This document shows, piece by piece, positions 4,445-26,215 of a stretch of 46,456 bases of DNA. Positions within the stretch are counted from its first letter, which is position 1. Each line of letters begins with the position of its first letter. The position numbers were made by a program, and so were the translations under genes. The notes under the pieces are model-generated. The model made no database searches and was not told the DNA's origin. It saw nothing but the letters and a program-made list of their open reading frames with translations. Source of the stretch: Candidatus Aerophobota bacterium. Lineage in GTDB: Bacteria > Aerophobota > Aerophobia > Aerophobales > B3-G15. The stretch spans positions 1-46,456 of the forward strand of contig JACUUP010000001.1 in NCBI GenBank assembly GCA_014859225.1. Direction: 5' to 3'.

Positions 4445-4804
4445 TTATCCAATATACCTCATCCTGTATTTGTCTGGCTCTACTACGCAAAAATACTTAT
4501 GTAATTGTGTTTCAACGTGTTCTCGGAGAACTCGCTTAAGCTCTTTATGTATCTCATTGATACTCATAGGTTTACCTCTCAGTAGAATTACACCTGAGGA
4601 TGAGATTTTCTCAATAAATACAAGAGCACCAAAATCCTTATCCCGTGTAATAAATATCCGATTCGTCTCTTTGGCTTTTTTTAATAGTTCACGGTCTGAT
4701 GCCCTGTGCATCCCAATTTCCCGAGCGGTAACAACATTGTGTCCCAATTTTATCAGATAATCAATTGTTACCTGATAGATATCCTGGTCAATTAAGAAAT
4801 GCAT
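4445..4804 (-). CDS. DUF5615-type PIN-like protein (putative toxin)
   Basis: A 119-residue protein of the DUF5615/Mut7-C-like PIN family. Visible marks are the N-terminal acidic FLIDQD, the central FITRDKDFG and the strand GVILLRGKPMS. These are the expected positions of the acidic residues of a PIN-type nuclease fold. Such proteins are normally paired with a DUF433 protein in a toxin-antitoxin-like unit, which is the arrangement here: its ATG overlaps the stop of the upstream DUF433 gene by one base (TAATG). An RNase toxin role is inferred from the fold. Confidence 0.82.
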   Translation of the reverse strand: MHFLIDQDIYQVTIDYLIKLGHNVVTAREIGMHRASDRELLKKAKETNRIFITRDKDFGALVFIEKISSSGVILLRGKPMSINEIHKELKRVLREHVETQLHKYFCVVEPDKYRMRYIG

Positions 4805-5049
4805 TATATCTTTTCAAGGTGAACTTCTTCTGAGCGCACAATATCAGTAGCATAGCTAACGCAAGCCTTAACATCATCGGTATCTAAATCGGGATAATAT
4901 TTAGTTACTATCTCCTCAAACGGAATACCTTCCTGCACTAATTCGAGCACATCCTCTACAGTAATCCGTGTACCGGCTATACAGGGTTTGCCAAAGTGAA
5001 TATTTGGGTCAATAACTATTCTTTCTGTATATTTTTCTTTTTTCGCCAT
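4804..5049 (-). CDS. DUF433 protein (putative antitoxin)
   Basis: An 81-residue DUF433 protein with the family signature DPNIHFGKPCIAGTRITVED followed by VLELVQEG and an acidic YYPDLDTDDVKACVSYA helix region, a winged-helix/HTH-like fold. The start is placed at ATG 5049, where AAGGAG sits about 7 bases upstream; an earlier in-frame start at 5070 would bury this site. It is the first gene of a two-gene unit with the DUF5615 protein and has a clear promoter at 5089-5116. It is probably the antitoxin and autorepressor, by analogy with similar pairs. Confidence 0.85.
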   Translation of the reverse strand: MAKKEKYTERIVIDPNIHFGKPCIAGTRITVEDVLELVQEGIPFEEIVTKYYPDLDTDDVKACVSYATDIVRSEEVHLEKI

Positions 5050-5088
5050 TCTTAAACTCCTTTTCAGCAAAACGCATTTACTTTGTTT

Positions 5089-5116
5089 ATTTTAATGCAT
5101 TGAAAAGCACTGTCAA
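5089..5116 (-). promoter_or_regulatory. Sigma70-type promoter for DUF433/DUF5615 pair
   Basis: On the minus strand TTGACA (5111-5116), a 16-base spacer, then TAAAAT (5089-5094). It lies about 40 bases upstream of the DUF433 start. Confidence 0.75.
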
Positions 5117-5162: not shown

Positions 5163-5855
5163 TTATTCATCTTTGTCCCTACGCTCCTGCACCTTTCTTT
5201 TTATCCTTTCCATCATGTCTTTCAACTTCTGTGTTTGTTTTCGCTCCTCTTCTGTTTTTGGTTCAAGCTCAGGTCTTGTTACTCTCCAGGTAACCTTTCT
5301 ACACACAGCATCTTCAGGATAAGCACCAGGGTCATAAAGAGTGTAGTCCCTGAATTTTGTGGACTTTTCCTGATAACAGGACCATACTGCCTGTCTTATA
5401 ACATCAGGATGCCCCTCATTTAGAAGATTGACGAGGGACACCTGTTTTCTTAACCTTTCCACTATCTCCGAAGGGATATTAAATAGATAAGGTGTTGGAG
5501 CCTTTGCTCCGATAATTTTCTTTCTCTCATCTATCCCATTTTTAAAAAGCTTCATAAGGGCATCACCTGTTGCATGGCCAGGAGATTCAGGTCCGGCAAG
5601 CACAAGATAACGGATATTGGGATTTGCCACCAGGTTACAGACCATCTTCTCTATCCCGATGTTCTCTGTTTGAAGAGTTCCAGATAAGGCGGCTCCCGCC
5701 TCAACTCCCACCCTTACCAGATTTTCAATGTCAGGGGGAATATTATCATAAGGATAGTTCAGAATAATCACCACTGCAACAGGTGATAGGTCATTTCCTC
5801 TCAGGTAATGCCCTTCTTCTGGGGGATAATCAGCCGGGGGTTGAATTTTTCGCAT
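5163..5855 (-). CDS. MtrA-like corrinoid-binding methyltransferase subunit, soluble
   Basis: A 230-residue homologue of subunit A of methanogen tetrahydromethanopterin S-methyltransferase. Family segments are visible in order: YPPEEGHYLRGNDLSPVAVV (near residues 10-29), GAALSGTLQTENIGIEKMV (54-72), NPNIRYLVLAGPESPGHATG (78-97) and KQVSLVNLLNE. His94 aligns with the His that coordinates the corrinoid cobalt in MtrA. The methanogen C-terminal membrane anchor is missing; a charged Lys/Arg/Glu tail replaces it, so the protein should be cytosolic. It is the last gene of the arsR-permease-thioredoxin-DGC operon. A methyl-transfer role with a methylated metalloid or thiol is inference. A relic of a second copy lies at 15830-15871. 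Confidence 0.82.
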   Translation of the reverse strand: MRKIQPPADYPPEEGHYLRGNDLSPVAVVIILNYPYDNIPPDIENLVRVGVEAGAALSGTLQTENIGIEKMVCNLVANPNIRYLVLAGPESPGHATGDALMKLFKNGIDERKKIIGAKAPTPYLFNIPSEIVERLRKQVSLVNLLNEGHPDVIRQAVWSCYQEKSTKFRDYTLYDPGAYPEDAVCRKVTWRVTRPELEPKTEEERKQTQKLKDMMERIKRKVQERRDKDE

Positions 5856-5874
5856 TAGCTCTCTCTTGTAGAAT

Positions 5875-6309
5875 TTATGCCTCTTTCAGAGCATCTACAA
5901 TTAAGTTTTTTGCCTTCTCCACATCTTCCTGAGAAATATACTCCATTAAGGGTTTTAGACTCTTTCCAATATCCTCATGAAGCGCTTTTTTCTTCATCCC
6001 TATATCTCTTGCCAGGACAAAACTTTTGGTTGGTTTAAATCCTGCCTCTTCCACCACTTTTCTTGAGCACTCACTGGGACATCCATCAACGGTAATTATT
6101 TTCTTTGCTGCCTTTGTCTTACCATGAACGGGAGGCACGCCTACCGGAAGTCCAGCCAGGCATCCTATTGCTACTTTATCAAGACCAACTTCTTTCACTG
6201 CTTCCATGCTGGCAAGCGCTGCAACAATTCCTGTATTAGAGAGTCCTCCAAAGCAGTTAAAAATGATATTTTCATGCGTTGGCATTCCTTCTTTCCATTC
6301 TGGCATCAT
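5875..6309 (-). CDS. DGC-domain putative zinc-binding protein
   Basis: About 144 residues with the DGC-domain pattern: an N-terminal NCFGGLSNTG (Cys followed by SNTG), an internal Cys (IGCLAGLP), and VDGCPSECSRK, the Asp-Gly-Cys motif that names the family, with two Cys positioned to bind metal. The biochemical role is unknown; members often sit with redox and metal or metalloid genes. AGGAGG precedes ATG 6309 and ATG 6306, so either could be used. The start overlaps the thioredoxin stop (ATGATGA), indicating coupling. It is 19 bases from the mtrA-like gene. The paralogous cassette at 15.8-17.5 kb lacks it. Confidence 0.8.
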   Translation of the reverse strand: MMPEWKEGMPTHENIIFNCFGGLSNTGIVAALASMEAVKEVGLDKVAIGCLAGLPVGVPPVHGKTKAAKKIITVDGCPSECSRKVVEEAGFKPTKSFVLARDIGMKKKALHEDIGKSLKPLMEYISQEDVEKAKNLIVDALKEA

Positions 6310-6545
6310 TCTTCCTCCTTTAACCATTTCTTTATTTTATCAGGTGAGGCAATCTCCCCTGAACATTTAATTTTGCCATCAATGGCAAGCGCCGGAGTCA
6401 TCATCACCCCGAACTTACTAATTTCTCGTACATCTTGCACCTTTTCAATCTCGGCTTCAATACCAAGCTCTTCAATTGCTTCCCTGGCATTTGCCTCTAA
6501 TTTCCTGCATTTTGCACAACCTATTCCAAGGACTTGGACTTTCAT
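6306..6545 (-). CDS. Small thioredoxin-like redox protein (CAKC)
   Basis: A 79-residue single thioredoxin-fold domain of the redox-active disulfide protein 2 type. It has a beta strand MKVQVLGIG, the active-site motif CAKC (residues 10-13), the cis-Pro loop MMTPAL and a final helix IKKWLKEEE. It probably reduces or relays disulfides for the neighbouring permease or DGC protein. It is 32 bases downstream of the permease. A near-identical paralogue is at 15858-16100. The pairing of this thioredoxin type with ArsP-like permeases is common. Confidence 0.88.
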   Translation of the reverse strand: MKVQVLGIGCAKCRKLEANAREAIEELGIEAEIEKVQDVREISKFGVMMTPALAIDGKIKCSGEIASPDKIKKWLKEEE

Positions 6546-6577
6546 ACTATCACCCTCCTTACGGTGTTTTTTTTATT

Positions 6578-7612
6578 TTAAAATACAAATGTTCCAAAAA
6601 TCATCCCGATAAAAGTGGACATAATAACAACTAAACCTATGTAAACAAGTGCCCTCTTTGTCCCCATAATACTTCTTATCACCAGCATATTAGGAAGGGA
6701 AAGTGCAGGCCCTGCAAGAAGAAGAGCCAGGGCAGGCCCTCGTCCCATACCCAAATCAAGAAAAGCTCTTAAGATGGGAACCTCGGTTAAGGTGGCAAAG
6801 TACATAAGAGCCCCGGCAACTGATGCTATGAAATTAGACCTTAGGGCATTTCCTCCCACCCAGGTCCTTATCACCTCAGGTGGTAAATACTCCCTGATTA
6901 TCCCGGCAGCAAACACTCCCACAAGAAGCCAGGGCAAAATAAGCCTGGTAAACTGCCAGGTTGCGGCAAGCCAGGATACAACTTCCTCTTTGCTGAACCA
7001 GAGCTTCAGCAGGATGACCAGGAAAACAAGTAACGCCACCACTATCCACCACCTCCCCCAGGCACCAAAAATGAGAATTGCTACGAGGTCGGCAAAAAAC
7101 AAAAGGGTTACAAGGGGATTTTTCCGGGAATCGTCAGTATCAGCTGTAAGGACAAACTCCTTTTTCTTCCCTTTCTCCCTTTTTTCCTGGAATAATTTTG
7201 CCATTATAAGTCCAATAATGATGGAAAAGCCAACTGCTCCAATTGCTCGTGCTATACCAAGCTCTATCCCTAAAAGACGTGCAGAGTAAATAATGGCAAG
7301 AAGGTTGATGGCAGGCCCTGAGTAGAGAAAAGTCGTGGCAGGGCCTATGCCTGCTCCCATAGTATATATCCCGGAGAAAAGGGGAAGAATCGTGCAGCTA
7401 CACACAGCAAGCACTGTTCCTGCAACCGATGCGATAGCGTAGGATAGGAATTTATTGGCAGATGGACCAAAATATTTTAAAATTACCTCCTTTTTGACCA
7501 TGCTGCTTATTGCCCCGGCTATGAAAAATGCAGGAACAAGACAGGTCAAAACATGAGCCGAGAGATACTCAAGTAGTGCCCTTGCCCCTGATAAGAAAAC
7601 GGATACGAACAT
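6578..7612 (-). CDS. ArsP-type permease (DUF318 family), copy 1
   Basis: A 344-residue polytopic membrane protein of the PF03773 permease family, which includes ArsP, an exporter of trivalent organoarsenicals. About eight hydrophobic helices in two related halves can be seen, joined by a charged loop near residues 148-165 (QEKREKGKKKEF). First half: CSCTILPLFSGIYTMGAGIG and FLYSGPAINLLA. Second half: ASVAGALMYFATLTEVPIL and ALLLAGPALSLPNML. The CSC in the first half is a plausible metalloid site. It is preceded by its own arsR and followed by thioredoxin. Substrate is not proven; an organoarsenical or other soft-metalloid substrate is inferred from the family and regulator. Confidence 0.88.
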   Translation of the reverse strand: MFVSVFLSGARALLEYLSAHVLTCLVPAFFIAGAISSMVKKEVILKYFGPSANKFLSYAIASVAGTVLAVCSCTILPLFSGIYTMGAGIGPATTFLYSGPAINLLAIIYSARLLGIELGIARAIGAVGFSIIIGLIMAKLFQEKREKGKKKEFVLTADTDDSRKNPLVTLLFFADLVAILIFGAWGRWWIVVALLVFLVILLKLWFSKEEVVSWLAATWQFTRLILPWLLVGVFAAGIIREYLPPEVIRTWVGGNALRSNFIASVAGALMYFATLTEVPILRAFLDLGMGRGPALALLLAGPALSLPNMLVIRSIMGTKRALVYIGLVVIMSTFIGMIFGTFVF

Positions 7613-7669
7613 TCATTTCTCCTTTTTATGATTCAATGGTCAGCTTAGCATATAGTGTGCAAAAAAATT

Positions 7670-7981
7670 TTAAGTTAACAGGGCCATTTTTTCCTTTACC
7701 AGTTTTTTTACAAAAGATAAAACAAGCTCAAGTATTTTAAACACATTGTCATCCTGCACCCGGTAGTAAACACTTACTCCCTCCTTTCTTGAGGAAAGTA
7801 TCCCGGCTCTTTTTAAAGCAGCAAGATGACGGGAGACATTGGATTGCTCTTCTCCTAAGTAAGGAAAAATCTCGCACACACATCTTTCCCCTTCCCTCAG
7901 GTAGTTAACAATTCTTATTCTTGTGGGATGCGAGAGTGCCTTCAAATACTCAGCCTGTGCCTCATACACCCTCTGGTTCAT
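7670..7981 (-). CDS. arsR: ArsR/SmtB-family repressor, copy 1
   Basis: A 103-residue winged-helix regulator. It shows LKALSHPTRIRIVNYL, the metal-sensing type motif CVCEIF (Cys34-x-Cys36, close to the ELCVCDL of ArsR), a recognition helix SNVSRHLAALKRAGIL and a wing SRKEGVSVYYRV. By my alignment it matches the second copy at 17222-17533 in 82 of 103 positions. It is the first gene of the permease operon and is expected to repress it until As(III), Sb(III) or a related ligand binds the CxC pair. GGAG lies just upstream of ATG 7981. The palindrome at 8001-8022 is its likely operator. Confidence 0.92.
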   Translation of the reverse strand: MNQRVYEAQAEYLKALSHPTRIRIVNYLREGERCVCEIFPYLGEEQSNVSRHLAALKRAGILSSRKEGVSVYYRVQDDNVFKILELVLSFVKKLVKEKMALLT

Positions 7982-8000
7982 TTCATTCTCCTTTTATGCT

Positions 8001-8022
8001 TTTATGATTAGATGCTCATAAA
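8001..8022. promoter_or_regulatory. Probable ArsR operator, copy 1
   Basis: A 22-bp inverted repeat TTTATG-N10-CATAAA immediately downstream of the -10 box, between the promoter and arsR. The same arms and spacing occur at 17556-17577 upstream of the second arsR, which supports function. Confidence 0.65.
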
Positions 8023-8024
8023 GT

Positions 8025-8052
8025 ATTATAAATAAAATTATACTACTGTCAA
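8025..8052 (-). promoter_or_regulatory. Consensus sigma70 promoter of arsR-permease operon 1
   Basis: On the minus strand TTGACA (8047-8052), 16 bases, TATAAT (8025-8030): both hexamers match the consensus exactly. The predicted transcription start falls inside the palindrome 8001-8022. Confidence 0.85.
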
Positions 8053-10324: not shown

Positions 10325-10633
10325 TTATTCTGTTTTCACTATCTGCATACCCATTATCCTTACTCCACCCTCTGTCCTCATGGACAAAGTCGCCGGCTTC
10401 GTAATAAGGCACTGTCCTTCTCTGATGGTTATCTTTTCCTCGTCCACCGTCACCTCAGCTTCTCCCTCAACAACATAAAAAATGACATGAGAAGACATCT
10501 CACAAACTGGAATTTTGTCCCCGGGAGATAGTGCAATAATTAATGTCTTAAATTCCTTTGCCTTATGAAAAACATTCTTTTGCCTCTCTTCATACGGGTA
10601 TGCGGTCATTGTTTTGAGGTCAAATACCTGCAT
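10325..10633 (-). CDS. Small cupin-domain protein (permease operon)
   Basis: A 102-residue single cupin barrel. The core strands can be followed: LSPGDKIPVCEMSSHVIFYV, VVEGEAEVTVDEEKI, then IREGQCLITKPATLSM. Only one His is seen in the usual metal-binding cluster, so a catalytic metal site is doubtful; it may sense or bind a small ligand. It overlaps the end of the upstream permease gene by 14 bases, and AAGGAG lies ahead of the ATG, so it is the third gene of the two-permease operon. A second cupin of similar size sits next to the other arsR cassette (17697-18044). Confidence 0.85.
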   Translation of the reverse strand: MQVFDLKTMTAYPYEERQKNVFHKAKEFKTLIIALSPGDKIPVCEMSSHVIFYVVEGEAEVTVDEEKITIREGQCLITKPATLSMRTEGGVRIMGMQIVKTE

Positions 10634-11192
10634 TATTTTCTTCTCCTTTTTTAGATTTGTTCATTTTTTTATCGCCCCATTCAACTACTCGTTCTATAAA
10701 AAACCCCATGGCGGCCACCAGGATAATAGTTAGAATGAGTCTGGTAGCCATAAATCCGAATCCTAAAAATTGTAGCTCCACCATCTCCTGAGGAATCTTT
10801 ATGCACGCCCAGGCAGATAGAAAAATAACTATATTGGAGATACTTGCCCCTTTTTTAATGAGAGCCGAAGCTAAAGGAAACGCCACATAAAGAGGACCTG
10901 TGGGAAGCGCACCAAAAAGGATTGCCACAAAGATACCCTTTGTACCTGAAGTTTTGCCCAAATACTTTACCACAAGCTCCCTGGAGATAAAAACACTGAA
11001 AAGACCCATTAAAACCATTACTGCAGGAAGTATCATGATCATCTCAAGAAAAAAATCCCAGGCGGTAGTAGTTACTGGTCCTTTTTTCTCCGGGAAAACT
11101 ACAATAAGAATCGCTACGAAAATCACTATTGCTGCCAGCATAGCCCAATCTCTTACCAATTTTCCTGTTTGTTTTCCTTTTTTACCCCTCAT
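10620..11192 (-). CDS. Half-size ArsP-like permease subunit B
   Basis: A 190-residue membrane protein with about five hydrophobic segments. It contains the half-repeat pattern of PF03773 permeases: VVKYLGKTSGTKGIFVAILF, GALPTGPLYVAFPLASALIK and KIPQEMVELQFLGFGF. It matches one half of the 344-residue permeases at 6.6 and 16.1 kb in layout, so it probably pairs with the product of the gene upstream (11189-11671) to form a complete transporter. Start and upstream stop overlap as ATGA. N- and C-termini are basic and cytoplasmic. Substrate unknown; no arsR is present in this operon. Confidence 0.8.
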   Translation of the reverse strand: MRGKKGKQTGKLVRDWAMLAAIVIFVAILIVVFPEKKGPVTTTAWDFFLEMIMILPAVMVLMGLFSVFISRELVVKYLGKTSGTKGIFVAILFGALPTGPLYVAFPLASALIKKGASISNIVIFLSAWACIKIPQEMVELQFLGFGFMATRLILTIILVAAMGFFIERVVEWGDKKMNKSKKGEENNAGI

Positions 11193-11671
11193 AGAACCGC
11201 CCCCATAATAAGAGCAATAACAATGGCAATGACAAAACTTATTCCATTACGAAGAAAAGCCATTTTCTTTCCCAGTTCTTTTATCTCCAGAGGCAAGGTA
11301 ACTGTTCCAATCATGGTCAATGTGGTGATAAATGCTGCCACGGCAGAAATTGATGCCCCGCTTTTAAGAAGCGATGCAGCAAGGGGAAAGGAGACAAGAG
11401 CTGGAATGTGCAAAACTGCCCCTACCATGGCAATAATAACTATTCCAATCAGGCCGGATTGCTCACCTATAAATTGAGAAATTTTTTCCGGTGGGATAAA
11501 TCCTAAAAGAAGACCAATGAGGATGACAATAATAAGCACAACCGGCAAAATACGCAAAAGTGATTTTGCTGCTACTATAAGAGATTTTTTTGTTTTTTCT
11601 TTGTTTTTAAAAACCGCAAAGAAAAGACAACTAAGGGCAAAGACATTTATGAAAACAGCGGTTAGACTCAT
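11189..11671 (-). CDS. Half-size ArsP-like permease subunit A
   Basis: A 160-residue membrane protein with about four hydrophobic segments and the half-permease pattern IPPEKISQFIGEQSGLIGIV, GAVLHIPALVSFPLAASLLK and TTLTMIGTVTLPLEIKEL. The PALVSFPLAASLLKSGAS stretch parallels GPLYVAFPLASALIKKGAS in the next gene, showing that the two are diverged halves. GAGGTG is 6-7 bases upstream of the ATG. It is first in the operon permease A, permease B, cupin. A small palindromic element (11705-11788) lies directly upstream. Confidence 0.8.
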   Translation of the reverse strand: MSLTAVFINVFALSCLFFAVFKNKEKTKKSLIVAAKSLLRILPVVLIIVILIGLLLGFIPPEKISQFIGEQSGLIGIVIIAMVGAVLHIPALVSFPLAASLLKSGASISAVAAFITTLTMIGTVTLPLEIKELGKKMAFLRNGISFVIAIVIALIMGAVL

Positions 11672-15036: not shown

Positions 15037-15588
15037 TCACAGCTCAGGAGTGGCATACCCTGCGTCCTTTAGAACCTTCAGCAAACTTTCTCTTGCCTTT
15101 TTGTATTCATCGGTAAAAAAAGGCTTGCACATATCAATAGATACTTCCTCAGTCACCAGTTTACTGGCAAAAGCCATGCAGGTTGCCTGTCCACAATCTC
15201 CACAGTTGGTTCGGGGTAAAAGCTTGTAGATACCAAGGGCTGTTAATTTGGCACGCGTCTTGTAGCTCGGAGTAATCGTGTCTTTGTCCTCGTAGGTTCG
15301 GTTGATCAGGTCTTTTACCTCACCCAGAACTTTTTTTGCCTCTTCAGGATTTTTGCATCCTGCAACAAGCATATTTTCAGGATAAAGAGTAACCCCTCTA
15401 CCCTCTTGCCTAAAAGAAAGTGTCCTGGCTTCTGGATTATAGATAGTCCCTTTAAAGATGGCATTCAAGTAGGGAAATGCAGGGCTAATATCACCTATAA
15501 GCTCTGCTGTAGCCGTAACCGTCTCTACCTCTCCGGGACGGCAGGGTGGAAAAAAGGTATTGATTTTACGAAGCTCTTTGAGAAGCAT
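15037..15588 (-). CDS. 4Fe-4S cluster protein related to the CODH/ACS gamma-subunit Fe-S domain
   Basis: About 183 residues. The C-terminal part has the PF04060-type motif TNCGDCGQATCMAF plus a fourth Cys in SIDMCKPF (Cys 129, 132, 137 and 154 from this start), as in the Fe-S domain of the corrinoid Fe-S protein large subunit. The N-terminal 110 residues carry no motif I recognise. The start is placed at ATG 15588, with GAGAGG 4-9 bases upstream; ATG 15600 is an alternative. The corrinoid-type Fe-S module is notable near MtrA-like genes, where it could serve in corrinoid reactivation; that link is inference only. Confidence 0.75.
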   Translation of the reverse strand: MLLKELRKINTFFPPCRPGEVETVTATAELIGDISPAFPYLNAIFKGTIYNPEARTLSFRQEGRGVTLYPENMLVAGCKNPEEAKKVLGEVKDLINRTYEDKDTITPSYKTRAKLTALGIYKLLPRTNCGDCGQATCMAFASKLVTEEVSIDMCKPFFTDEYKKARESLLKVLKDAGYATPEL

Positions 15589-15763
15589 ACACCCTCTCAT
15601 AATAGTTATTGTCTACTTTAACCATGTTGGTCAGCTCCTGGTATTTAATCGTAAAAGACAATTAGCAAAAAGCAGCCTACCCTACTCAAATTCCAACCAG
15701 CAAACCTTATAATAGAACACAGGAGGAAAATGTCAAATATCGCATTCTATATCAAAAAGTATC

Positions 15764-15831: not shown

Positions 15832-15871
15832 ATTTTGGAGGATATTCAGCTGGAGGTTCAACTTTTCTCAT
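15830..15871 (-). pseudogene. 5' remnant of a second mtrA-like gene
   Basis: Thirteen codons, MRKVEPPAEYPPK then stop, begin 11 bases before the end of the thioredoxin gene. They match the first 12 residues of the intact MtrA-like protein at 5163-5855 (MRKIQPPADYPP) at 9 of 12 positions, the rest being conservative. The frame is cut by the palindromic element and no continuation is found beyond it. The second cassette therefore once ended in an mtrA-like gene too. Confidence 0.82.
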
Positions 15872-16100
15872 TCTTGAGCCATTTTTTTATTTTATCAGGT
15901 GAGGCAATCTCCCCTGAACACATGAGCTTGCCGTCAATGGCAAGAGCCGGGGTCATCATTACCCCGAATTTGCTAATTTCTCGCACATCCTGCACCTTCT
16001 CAATCTCGGCTTCAACACCGAGCTCATCAATGGCTTCCCTGGCATTTGCCTCAAGCTTTCTACACTTTGCACAACCTGTTCCAAGAATCTGAACTTTCAT
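15858..16100 (-). CDS. Small thioredoxin-like redox protein (CAKC), copy 2
   Basis: An 80-residue thioredoxin-fold protein, nearly identical to the one at 6306-6545, with the same CAKC active site (residues 10-13) and MMTPAL cis-Pro loop. The start is ATG 16100, where GGGAGG precedes by 9 bases; a longer open frame to 16178 runs into the permease end and lacks a ribosome site. The gene is 28 bases from the permease stop. Directly downstream lies the mtrA-like remnant instead of the DGC gene found in the first cassette. Confidence 0.88.
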   Translation of the reverse strand: MKVQILGTGCAKCRKLEANAREAIDELGVEAEIEKVQDVREISKFGVMMTPALAIDGKLMCSGEIASPDKIKKWLKNEKS

Positions 16101-16128
16101 ACTATTCACCCTCCCTGCCGTGTTTTTT

Positions 16129-17166
16129 TTAAAACACAAATATTCCAAAAAGCATCCCGATAAAGGTGGACATAGCAACTACTAAAGTTATGTAAACAAG
16201 TGCTCTTTTTGTTCCCATGATGCTTCTTATAACGAGCATATTCGGGAGCGAGAGCGCAGGTCCAGCAAGAAGGAGCGCTAAGGCTGGCCCTCTTCCCATA
16301 CCTAAATCGAGAAAGGCTCGCAGGATTGGAACCTCGGTCAACGTGGCAAAGTACATCAATGACCCGGCAACTGATGCTATGAAATTAGAACGTAGTGCGT
16401 TTCCTCCCACCCAGGTCCTTATCACCTCAGGTGGCAAAAACTCTCTGATTATCCCGGCAGCAAATACTCCCACAAGGAGCCAGGGCAAAATTAGCAGGAC
16501 AAACTGATAGGTTGCTGCAAGCCAGGACAAAATCTCATTCTTGGTGAACCAGATTTTCAGCACAATGACCAGGAGCACGAGCAAGCCTGTAACTATCAAC
16601 CACTGTCCCCAGGCACCAAAAATGAGGATTCCTACGAGGTCGGCAAAGAATAAAAGGACTGCAGCAGGATTTTTTGAAGGTGTTTTGGGGTCAGCTACCG
16701 GAGAAAATTTTACCTTTTCCGCATCCTTTGTCCTTTTTTTCTCAAATATAGATGACATTATAAGACCAATAACGATGGAAAAGCCAACTGCCCCAATTGC
16801 TCGTGCTATACCAAGCTCTATCCCTAAAAGACGCGCCGAGTAAATAATGGCAAGCAGATTGATAGCAGGGCCTGAGTATAAAAAAGTGGTGGCAGGACCT
16901 ATTCCTGCTCCCAGGCTGTATATTCCGGAAAAAAGGGGAAGGATGGTGCAACTGCAAACAGCAAGCACTGTTCCTGCAACTGATGCTATGGCGTAGGATA
17001 AAACCTTGTTGGCAGAAGGTCCAAAGTACTTCAAGATAATTTCTTTTTTCACCATACTGCTTATCGCCCCGGCAATAAAAAAAGCAGGAACAAGACAGGT
17101 TAAAACATGAGCCGAGAGATACTCAATGAGTGCCCTCACCCCTGATAAGAGAATGGACACTAACAT
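16129..17166 (-). CDS. ArsP-type permease (DUF318 family), copy 2
   Basis: A 345-residue paralogue of the permease at 6578-7612. Most of the helices are identical, including CSCTILPLFSGIYSLGAGIG and ASVAGSLMYFATLTEVPIL. The central cytoplasmic loop (residues about 148-168, KRTKDAEKVKFSPVAD) has diverged strongly, so loop and not transport core separates the two. AAGGAG precedes ATG 17166. Same operon logic: arsR, permease, thioredoxin. Predicted to export organoarsenicals or a related soft metalloid. Confidence 0.88.
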   Translation of the reverse strand: MLVSILLSGVRALIEYLSAHVLTCLVPAFFIAGAISSMVKKEIILKYFGPSANKVLSYAIASVAGTVLAVCSCTILPLFSGIYSLGAGIGPATTFLYSGPAINLLAIIYSARLLGIELGIARAIGAVGFSIVIGLIMSSIFEKKRTKDAEKVKFSPVADPKTPSKNPAAVLLFFADLVGILIFGAWGQWLIVTGLLVLLVIVLKIWFTKNEILSWLAATYQFVLLILPWLLVGVFAAGIIREFLPPEVIRTWVGGNALRSNFIASVAGSLMYFATLTEVPILRAFLDLGMGRGPALALLLAGPALSLPNMLVIRSIMGTKRALVYITLVVAMSTFIGMLFGIFVF

Positions 17167-17221: not shown

Positions 17222-17533
17222 TTAGCTTAAAATGGCGGCTTTTTCCTTTGCTACTTTTTTTACAAAAGATAAAACAAGCTCAAGTACCTTAAACACATTT
17301 TCATCCTGCACTCTGTAATAAACACTTACCCCCTTTTTCCTTGAAGAAAGTATCCCTGCTCTTTTTAAAGCAGCAAGGTGGCGCGAGATATTGGACTGTT
17401 CCTCCCCAAGATGAGGAAAAATCTCACATACACACATCTCATTCTTCCTCAAATACTCAACAATCTTTATCCTGGTTGGATGAGATAGCGCCTTGAAATA
17501 TTTTGCCTGTGCCTCATAAATTTTTCCATCCAC
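17222..17533 (-). CDS. arsR: ArsR/SmtB-family repressor, copy 2
   Basis: A 103-residue paralogue of the regulator at 7670-7981. The helix-turn-helix (SNISRHLAALKRAGIL) and wing are conserved, and the sensing pair is CVCEIF preceded by Met instead of Arg. As the recognition helix differs only by Val/Ile, the two repressors probably bind each other's operators. First gene of cassette 2; promoter and palindrome lie just upstream (17556-17607). Confidence 0.92.
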   Translation of the reverse strand: MDGKIYEAQAKYFKALSHPTRIKIVEYLRKNEMCVCEIFPHLGEEQSNISRHLAALKRAGILSSRKKGVSVYYRVQDENVFKVLELVLSFVKKVAKEKAAILS

Positions 17534-24799: not shown

Positions 24800-26215
24800 T
24801 TATGTTTTCTTGAGATTTGCTAAAACTTCAAGCTTTTTTTTATCCTGCTCATCTTGTTTATCTTCATCTTGAACCATGGGATTGAGAATTCTTTTCTTCA
24901 TTTTGGACAAGGTCTTCTTATAATAAAGGTTAAAGGCCAAAAGGAGCAAAGCGTACTTCCATCTTCCACCTGAGAATATCCCTGTTAGTCTTTTAAAAAT
25001 AGAGAAAAAGCTAAGGATATTTACATAAGCCCATGCCAACCCTTTATCCAGCTCTTTTGGACTCATTTTTTTTGGTTTAAATACTACATGACCGCAATCA
25101 TAGTTAGACCAATCCCTATCAAATATTCTATTCTCATTTTCCAGCTGCCTATGAAGCCTGGTTCCAGGTAAAGGTGTAAGAATGGAATACTGAGCACTAT
25201 CCAACCTGGTTTTATTTATAAAATCTACAGTCTCCTTAAATATACTTGCATCATGATTATCCATCCCAAATATAAAAGCCGCGTGAAGAAATATCCCAAA
25301 CCGATGGAATCTCTTTATAGCCTCCTCGTAAAACTCAACTTTGTTTTGAGTTTTGCCGACCTCTACAAGCGCATCCTTTGATACCGTCTCGAAACCTACA
25401 AAAAGTGCCTTACAGCCGCTTTTTTGTGCTAATTCTAAAAGCTCTTCATCGTAAGCTGCATTAATAGATGATTGACTCATCCACATTATTTTTAAGGGGA
25501 TAAGAGCTTTGAAAAGTTCTTTAGCATAAGCTTTATTCCCCATAATATTGTCATCAAGAAATGCAAAAAGCCGCCCCTTTAATCCTTTACCTATATGTTC
25601 CTTAATAAAATTTACAACTTGATTTACCGGGCGAAATCTTATTTTTCTACCAAAAAACTCGGTAACTGAGCAAAAAGAACAGTTGTAGGGACATCCTCTG
25701 GTAAGATGAAGAGCTTTGTCCGCAATGTATCTTTTCCCCTTTAAAATATCCCATCTGGGGAACGGTATTTTAGAAAGGTCGGGCAACTTTTCAGCTTTAT
25801 AGATTTTTTGTAAAGCTTCTTTTCCACCCTTTATAAAATCATCCATTAGCTTTTCCCATGCACCCTCAGCTTCTCCAATTACAACCGAATCGGCATGTTG
25901 AAGACCTTCCTCCGGTAAAACAGATACATGGGAGCCTCCCAGCACCACAGGAATTTTCCTATCCCTAAATTGGCGCGCAATTTCATAAGCCCGGGGAGCA
26001 GCAGATGTCATAGTGGTTATGCCTACCAGGTCAATTTTTTTATTAAAATCTATAGGTTCAACATTTTCATCCGTAAGAGTTACCTCAACCCCCGCCGGAG
26101 TAACTGCAGCCACATTGAGCAATCCAAGTGGGGGAATTTTAAAAATCTTTTTCCTCTCCGCTCTCTTTGTTTGAATATTTGCCATCCATGTCGGTGCTAT
26201 TAACTCTACTCGCAT
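24800..26215 (-). CDS. B12-binding domain radical SAM protein
   Basis: 471 residues: an N-terminal cobalamin-binding-like Rossmann domain (about 1-140, with IDLVGITTMTSAAPRAYEI and VVLGGSHVSVLPEE), then a radical SAM domain with the cluster motif CPYNCSFC (RGCPYNCSFCSVTEFFGR), and a C-terminal extension with a short hydrophobic stretch (YALLLLAFNLYY) and a Lys/Asp/Glu-rich end. The usual DxHxxG B12-binding motif is not evident, so cobalamin binding is uncertain. Such enzymes often methylate lipids or antibiotics or carry out C-C chemistry; the substrate is unknown. AGGAGG precedes the ATG and a consensus promoter lies at 26305-26332. Confidence 0.9.
   Translation of the reverse strand: MRVELIAPTWMANIQTKRAERKKIFKIPPLGLLNVAAVTPAGVEVTLTDENVEPIDFNKKIDLVGITTMTSAAPRAYEIARQFRDRKIPVVLGGSHVSVLPEEGLQHADSVVIGEAEGAWEKLMDDFIKGGKEALQKIYKAEKLPDLSKIPFPRWDILKGKRYIADKALHLTRGCPYNCSFCSVTEFFGRKIRFRPVNQVVNFIKEHIGKGLKGRLFAFLDDNIMGNKAYAKELFKALIPLKIMWMSQSSINAAYDEELLELAQKSGCKALFVGFETVSKDALVEVGKTQNKVEFYEEAIKRFHRFGIFLHAAFIFGMDNHDASIFKETVDFINKTRLDSAQYSILTPLPGTRLHRQLENENRIFDRDWSNYDCGHVVFKPKKMSPKELDKGLAWAYVNILSFFSIFKRLTGIFSGGRWKYALLLLAFNLYYKKTLSKMKKRILNPMVQDEDKQDEQDKKKLEVLANLKKT

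Follow-up and report, generated by a model that had tools for sequence, protein, structure and literature searches.

The window analyzed here is a 46,456-bp stretch of DNA, an entire contig (JACUUP010000001.1) of a 1.8-Mb metagenome-assembled genome (MAG) of a Candidatus Aerophobota bacterium. Its minus strand carries a five-gene operon (positions 5163 to 8052) for an ArsR-type repressor, an ArsP permease, a thioredoxin, a DGC protein, and a soluble homolog of MtrA, a protein known from the tetrahydromethanopterin:coenzyme M (CoM) methyltransferase. MtrA-like genes of this type recur next to arsenic genes in 13 named phyla of bacteria and archaea. We put at about even the chances that a soluble MtrA-family protein has here been taken into an ArsR-controlled arsenic-type operon of an anaerobe as a corrinoid methyl carrier, one that would shuttle methyl groups from the pterin pool to arsenic or back.

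Composition and predicted control of the operon

All five open reading frames (ORFs) were identified with Pfam and NCBIfam profiles at scores above the respective cut-offs. In the order of transcription, they encode a 103-amino acid (aa) ArsR/SmtB repressor (7670–7981; HTH_5 and NF033788, 95 bits against a cut-off of 55), a 344-aa ArsP permease (6578–7612; PF03773 [ArsP_1], 276.7 bits against 32.3), a 79-aa thioredoxin of the ArsE/MTH895 type (6306–6545; PF13192 and TIGR00412, 105.6 bits against 62), a 150-aa DGC protein (5875–6327; PF08859, 64.3 bits against 27), and a 230-aa soluble, corrinoid-type MtrA-like protein with His94, Cys73, and Cys160 (5163–5855; PF04208, 142.9 bits against 25). 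Consecutive genes are separated by 57, 32, −22, and 19 nt. A preliminary description of this DNA had proposed a CxC repressor, an organoarsenical-type permease, a CxxC redox protein, a DGC protein, and an MtrA homolog that keeps the cobalt-ligating His94, all coupled by overlaps or short gaps; the profiles agree with the five assignments, the measured gaps (−22 to 57 nt) bear out the coupling, and His94 aligns with His84 of methanogen MtrA.

The repressor belongs to the ArsR/SmtB family by its profile match (HTH_5/NF033788) and its cysteine sensor motif, CVC at positions 34 to 36, which contains its only cysteines. Its paralog ArsR2 has the same set of two (Cys34 and Cys36), which rules out a three-cysteine As(III) site of the Escherichia coli type in either protein. 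Cluster-1 ArsP proteins are defined by the motifs HvLxClvPAfFIAG and LAVC(S/T)C (PMC4435449); the permease of the window carries both, as HVLTCLVPAFFIAG and LAVCSC, and is classified as a cluster-1 ArsP. The thioredoxin has the redox motif C10-A-K-C13, and the DGC protein is a member of its family (PF08859) with a VDGC motif and cysteines at positions 25, 56, 83, and 87. With an ArsR repressor and an arsenic-type efflux permease in one predicted transcription unit, the genes constitute an ars operon, as judged from their sequences.

A sigma-70–type promoter, TTGACA-16-TATAAT (8025–8052, minus strand), matches the consensus at 12 of 12 positions and starts at 8052, the upper edge of the stretch singled out in the preliminary description. 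Promoter-like sites across the region are in total not above chance, but the promoter at 8052–8025 is kept, together with a dyad, ahead of arsR2 in the paralogous set (17.5 kb) and in related genomes at two of the loci surveyed below (L022 and L024). Alignment of the four upstream regions places the dyad, TATGA-N8-TCATA with small variations, between the promoter and the start of arsR (approximately 7990–8022, minus strand), and this dyad is likely the ArsR operator.

The grouping of ArsR, ArsP, and MtrA-like genes, mostly with the thioredoxin gene, is repeated in three other genomes of the order, each assembled independently, in which the MtrA-like gene adjoins genes for a SurA/thioredoxin protein, a CcdA-like protein, and Acr3. 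The presence of the MtrA-like gene with arsR and arsP in these other assemblies rules out an assembly chimera.

MtrA-like genes in arsenic islands of diverse phyla

Scanning 84,980 species genomes by the MtrA sequence alone, with neighbors ignored, yielded 80 loci; the scan used two peptide patterns and favors close relatives. In 51 of the 80 loci, the MtrA-like gene has at least one gene for Acr3, ArsP, ArsR, ArsE, ArsC, or ArsM no more than 7 kb away in the same orientation. The most frequent same-strand neighbor is Acr3 (40 loci), followed by ArsP and ArsE (31 each), ArsR (27), CcdA/DsbD (22), DGC (18), ArsF-like proteins (13), ArsC (12), and ArsM (10). The neighbor profiles were built from the same 80 loci that they score, with control loci and NCBIfam checks as a guard: the Acr3 and ArsM assignments scored 357.7 and 352 bits (NCBIfam cut-offs of 282.8 and 263, respectively), and 20 loci of 15 kb each, drawn at random from five of the surveyed genomes, contained no gene for Acr3, ArsP, ArsE, ArsC, DGC, or ArsM and one for ArsR.

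The ars-linked loci span 13 named phyla when pairs of half-length ArsP proteins (see below) are counted too, and they include 15 of 19 loci in Methanobacteriota, 12 of 16 in Chloroflexota, and 8 of 10 in Actinomycetota. Where a genome encodes both Acr3 and a PF04208 protein, the two genes lie at most 5 kb apart in 26 of 42 cases, against 0.27 expected from genome sizes; the genomes are not independent samples, so that the nominal P value is not to be relied on and the wide phylum distribution carries more weight. A chance neighbor is rejected on the strength of the 26 of 42 cases and of the random controls. The preliminary description had placed a corrinoid-carrier-type gene in arsenic-type operons and had called for a co-occurrence survey; the cross-phylum distribution upholds that placement and extends the association well beyond this genome.

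The window operon invites comparison with two known organoarsenical systems. Like the ArsP proteins that export methylarsenite and roxarsone(III), its permease belongs to PF03773 and has the cluster-1 motifs and the CSC sequence; unlike them, it is encoded with MtrA-like and DGC genes, and its export role is a prediction. An ArsE-type thioredoxin gene in the operon is shared with the ArsEFG system, and genes for ArsF-like and CcdA/DsbD-like proteins are frequent near the relatives, whereas no arsF or arsG gene was seen in the operon of the window. Several relatives have adjoining DGC and ArsE genes without a PF04208 gene; not every ArsE-DGC module therefore includes an MtrA-like gene, which appears as an addition to a more general module. 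A 92-aa protein without a family match is encoded in ten loci (for example, L058, 1211–1489), often beside the ArsE-type thioredoxin.

Individually, ars operons, ArsP, ArsE, DGC, and MtrA are known, and bacterial and archaeal homologs of MtrA have been reported outside methanogenesis, with no function assigned and, in the bacterial ones, with His84 mostly kept (PMC4915002). In the open-licence literature of PubMed Central, we found no paper assigning MtrA or DUF4346 to an arsenic operon, and we did not find described there the recurrence of the MtrA family in arsenic islands, its fusion to an iron–sulfur (Fe-S) domain, or its family-specific cysteines. The coupling of MtrA to arsenic genes across phyla singles out a specific gene, residues (His94, Cys73, and Cys160), and hosts to examine.

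The MtrA-like protein and its candidate reactions

The MtrA-like protein of the window is 71% to 74% identical to its closest relatives and approximately 40% identical to methanogen MtrA. Its AlphaFold model (59 sequences; predicted local distance difference test score of 90.7) superimposes on apo MtrA (5l8x; Z 28.2, 1.0 Å over 168 residues) and on cobalamin-bound MtrA (5laa; Z 26.5, 0.9 Å over 159 residues); AlphaFold was probably trained on MtrA folds, so that the superposition supports the fold only. Cobalamin is contacted in MtrA by the cobalt ligand His84 and by Thr53, Asn55, Gly57, Asn64, Glu54, and Lys52 (PMC4915002). The counterparts of the first five (His94, Thr63, Asn65, Gly67, and Asn74) are invariant in all 78 ars-type sequences; that of Glu54 is Glu64 in the window protein and Glu in 61 of the 78; and the Lys52 position, at which the contact is made by the backbone, is Gln in all of them. 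Two cysteines are specific to the family, namely Cys160 (78/78; Leu in eight canonical MtrA proteins) and Cys73 (70/78; Ala or Thr in the canonical eight). From the fold, the conserved pocket residues, and the fusions described below, we infer both corrinoid binding, base-off with His94 below the cobalt, and the reaction discussed further on.

The MtrA subunit of the methyltransferase itself was considered and rejected, because the protein scores 136.5 bits with TIGR01111 against a cut-off of 249.15 and no Mtr partner genes occur in the operon. It shares with that subunit and with cytoplasmic PF04208 homologs the fold (Z 26 to 28), the cobalt-ligating histidine, and most cobalamin contacts, but it is soluble, its C-terminal helix being charged and not a membrane anchor, has two extra cysteines, and is encoded in ars islands. 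It also belongs to a clade of its own: in a tree inferred with a quick method and rooted at the midpoint, with long branches between groups, the 78 short sequences form one group (Shimodaira–Hasegawa-like approximate likelihood ratio test support of 98), separate from canonical MtrA (99) and from longer forms.

Fusions and genomic company bear on the chemistry. Ten Chloroflexota loci, mostly from Dehalococcoidia, encode an MtrA-like protein with a C-terminal Fe-S domain, PF04060 (E-values of 1.5e-11 in L084 and 6.2e-12 in L095). A domain of this type re-reduces cobalt in the corrinoid protein of carbon monoxide dehydrogenase/acetyl-CoA synthase (CODH/ACS), and that corrinoid protein (PF03599, E ≤ 1e-30) is encoded in 45 of 48 host genomes versus 24 of 145 comparison genomes; the window genome encodes it as well, with an adjoining pterin-binding match. 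Members of a distant long branch combine a Cys-rich N-terminus, MtrA, and a region matching the Pfam entry PterinBD-DUF4346. This branch includes Planococcus and Paraburkholderia, genera known to be aerobic, and is found on small plasmids in Planococcus (L020 is pA30H1); L021 also encodes a long form. Long forms stand beside arsR in L016, L018, and L020, in the last two also with a heavy-metal P-type ATPase. Finally, genes with the HgcA motif NVWCAAGK occur within 2.3 kb of the MtrA-like gene in three Methanoregula clusters that also hold Acr3 (L047, 9924–11012; L058, 3710–4762; L065, 8124–9197). Taken together, the fusions, the CODH/ACS company, and the HgcA-motif neighbors speak for a carrier cycling between Co(I) and methyl-Co(III) that would exchange methyl groups with reduced pterins and act in metalloid islands.

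The same carrier might act on another substrate, such as antimony, selenium, mercury, or a methylated thiol, in islands where toxic-element genes merely cluster. The HgcA-motif genes in Methanoregula, the long forms beside arsR and heavy-metal ATPases, and the many metals sensed by ArsR-family regulators would all suit this explanation. We nevertheless consider it rather improbable, given that Acr3 is by far the commonest neighbor (40/80), with ArsC and ArsM in addition, and that the ArsP of the operon is a cluster-1 protein carrying CSC.

Two further additions to the MtrA-like gene were observed. Archaeal ars-type proteins in L083 (PF12840), L093, and L094 have a C-terminal winged-helix-like extension, a putative DNA-binding domain fused to the corrinoid-type protein. 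Loci without ars neighbors showed no other consistent partner, except in one clade without ars genes nearby (L064, L067, L069, L070, L076, L077, L079, L086, and L092), where the MtrA-like gene is followed by a gene for a Cys-rich protein of approximately 117 aa without a family match; in several members of this clade, the MtrA-like protein itself ends in a similar domain.

In the arsenic methyl carrier that we favor, corrinoid would be bound as described, and Co(I) would be generated by a low-potential Fe-S donor, namely the fused domain in Chloroflexota and perhaps the Fe-S protein encoded at 15.0 kb in the window (see below). The methyl group would be exchanged with methyl-tetrahydrofolate or methyl-tetrahydromethanopterin, for example through the CODH/ACS methyltransferase, and would pass as a methyl cation to thiol-held arsenite, giving methylarsenite for export by ArsP. 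Methyl-Co(III) with a His ligand gives up its methyl group as a cation, for which thiol-liganded trivalent arsenic is a suitable nucleophile, as in ArsM, so that arsenite methylation with ArsP export would be chemically plain. The product would be that of the S-adenosylmethionine–dependent arsenite methyltransferase ArsM, encoded near the MtrA-like gene in some loci, which is, however, an unrelated protein with a different methyl donor. Alternatively, the reverse reaction would strip methyl groups from methylarsenicals and leave arsenite for export by Acr3. Demethylation would fit the frequency of Acr3 and the want of an anaerobic demethylase: no enzyme has been identified for anaerobic demethylation of dimethylarsenic, a process relevant to rice paddies (PMC10579292, PMC6776024), for which a corrinoid protein has been suggested (PMC6776024) and whose mechanism has been called unclear (PMC10579292). 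Our slight lean is toward methylation, itself a tentative possibility, over demethylation, which is somewhat more doubtful; the sequence alone does not decide between the two directions. Either way, the MtrA-like protein is a good candidate for adding or removing arsenic methyl groups without oxygen. A methylated thiol as the methyl donor, also suggested in the preliminary description, found no support.

Several observations weigh against this reading. In the pocket, 17 of 78 sequences have Pro or Ala at the position of Glu54, which in MtrA hydrogen-bonds the cobalt-ligating histidine, and Pro92 of the window protein falls at the position of the residue that binds the corrinoid through its backbone NH. 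No dedicated pterin methyltransferase recurs in the surveyed islands, the CODH/ACS co-occurrence is confounded by anaerobic life, and methylation would be redundant in the 10 of 80 loci with ArsM. Lastly, 29 of the 80 loci lack all six ars genes, and several of these, with full flanks, hold a solitary MtrA-like gene. In many loci, the MAG contig breaks off close to the MtrA-like gene, and 17 of the 29 have less than 3 kb of contig on one side; the ars-linked and non-ars loci are intermixed within the group of 78 short sequences, which makes loss of linkage or cut contigs likely.

The 29 loci and the solitary copies would also be expected of a passenger gene that is horizontally transferred together with ars islands but serves a housekeeping function elsewhere. 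Such a gene would have been lost or scattered, whereas the MtrA-like gene stays with ars genes in varied arrangements across 13 phyla and, in the window, lies among overlapping or closely spaced genes under one promoter; we regard the passenger explanation as quite improbable. Somewhat less so, yet still unlikely, is a protein that binds corrinoid and transfers no methyl group to or from arsenic, serving instead to sense, store, or repair cobalamin or to exert thiol or redox control when arsenic damages the corrinoid enzymes of CODH/ACS. The operon has neither a pterin methyltransferase nor an acceptor enzyme, nearly all hosts have CODH/ACS and hence a corrinoid pathway to protect, and the winged-helix fusions suggest regulatory use in some members. 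Set against this are the Fe-S fusion of the corrinoid iron–sulfur protein (CFeSP) type and, in the long branch, the pterin-binding-domain fusion, which point to redox cycling and methyl exchange, as well as immediate neighbors that are transporters and arsenic enzymes.

The favored arsenic methyl carrier has a parallel in mercury methylation by HgcA/HgcB, where a corrinoid protein with an Fe-S partner acts on a toxic element, as we propose for the MtrA-like system; hgcAB is likewise found beside acr3, arsC, and arsR (PMC7438021). HgcA, however, has the CFeSP fold (PF03599) and the NVWCAAGK cap, whereas the protein of the window adopts the MtrA fold, which is unrelated, and has histidine as the ligand. 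This difference in fold and family, together with the absence from the window of any ORF with the motif N(V/I)WCA(A/G)GK, rules out an HgcA homolog. By analogy, the ars-type protein would work as a corrinoid methyl carrier for a toxic element, and it belongs to neither HgcA nor the Mtr complex. Its coupling to arsenic genes across many phyla suggests that recruitment of B12 proteins to toxic elements took place at least twice, from unrelated folds. With confidence short of even, we further propose a widespread corrinoid-dependent arsenic methyl-transfer system with the MtrA fold and two family-specific cysteines, present in anaerobes of at least 13 phyla, which may be an arsenic analog of HgcA and possibly includes the missing anaerobic demethylase.

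Surroundings of the operon

A paralogous set lies 9 kb from the operon on the same minus strand and encodes ArsR2 (17222–17533; 79% identical to its counterpart), ArsP2 (16129–17166; 85%), and thioredoxin 2 (15858–16103; 90%, annotated start uncertain). The gene located 257 nt downstream of thioredoxin 2 (15037–15600, minus strand) encodes a 187-aa protein with a C-terminal Fe-S domain as in the large subunit of the CODH/ACS corrinoid protein (PF04060; match to 4djd at 8.7e-10), which is a possible electron donor. The window genome has its sole Acr3 gene on a different contig, as part of an ArsR-ArsC-Acr3 operon; inorganic arsenic thus has a separate operon, and the one with the MtrA-like gene likely serves something else or more.

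Between the two ars sets, two genes overlapping by 4 nt encode half-length ArsP_1 proteins of 190 and 160 aa and are followed by a cupin gene (10325–11671, minus strand). Each protein matches the first half of PF03773 only, and similar pairs occur near ars-type MtrA in L029, L030, L037, L045, and L094; they possibly form a heterodimeric permease. Directly downstream of the operon, a DUF5615 (PIN-like) and DUF433 gene pair (4445–5070, minus strand), likely a toxin–antitoxin module, has a promoter-like sequence of its own at 5116–5089. Farther along the contig, a radical SAM protein with a B12-binding domain is encoded on the minus strand at positions 24800–26215.

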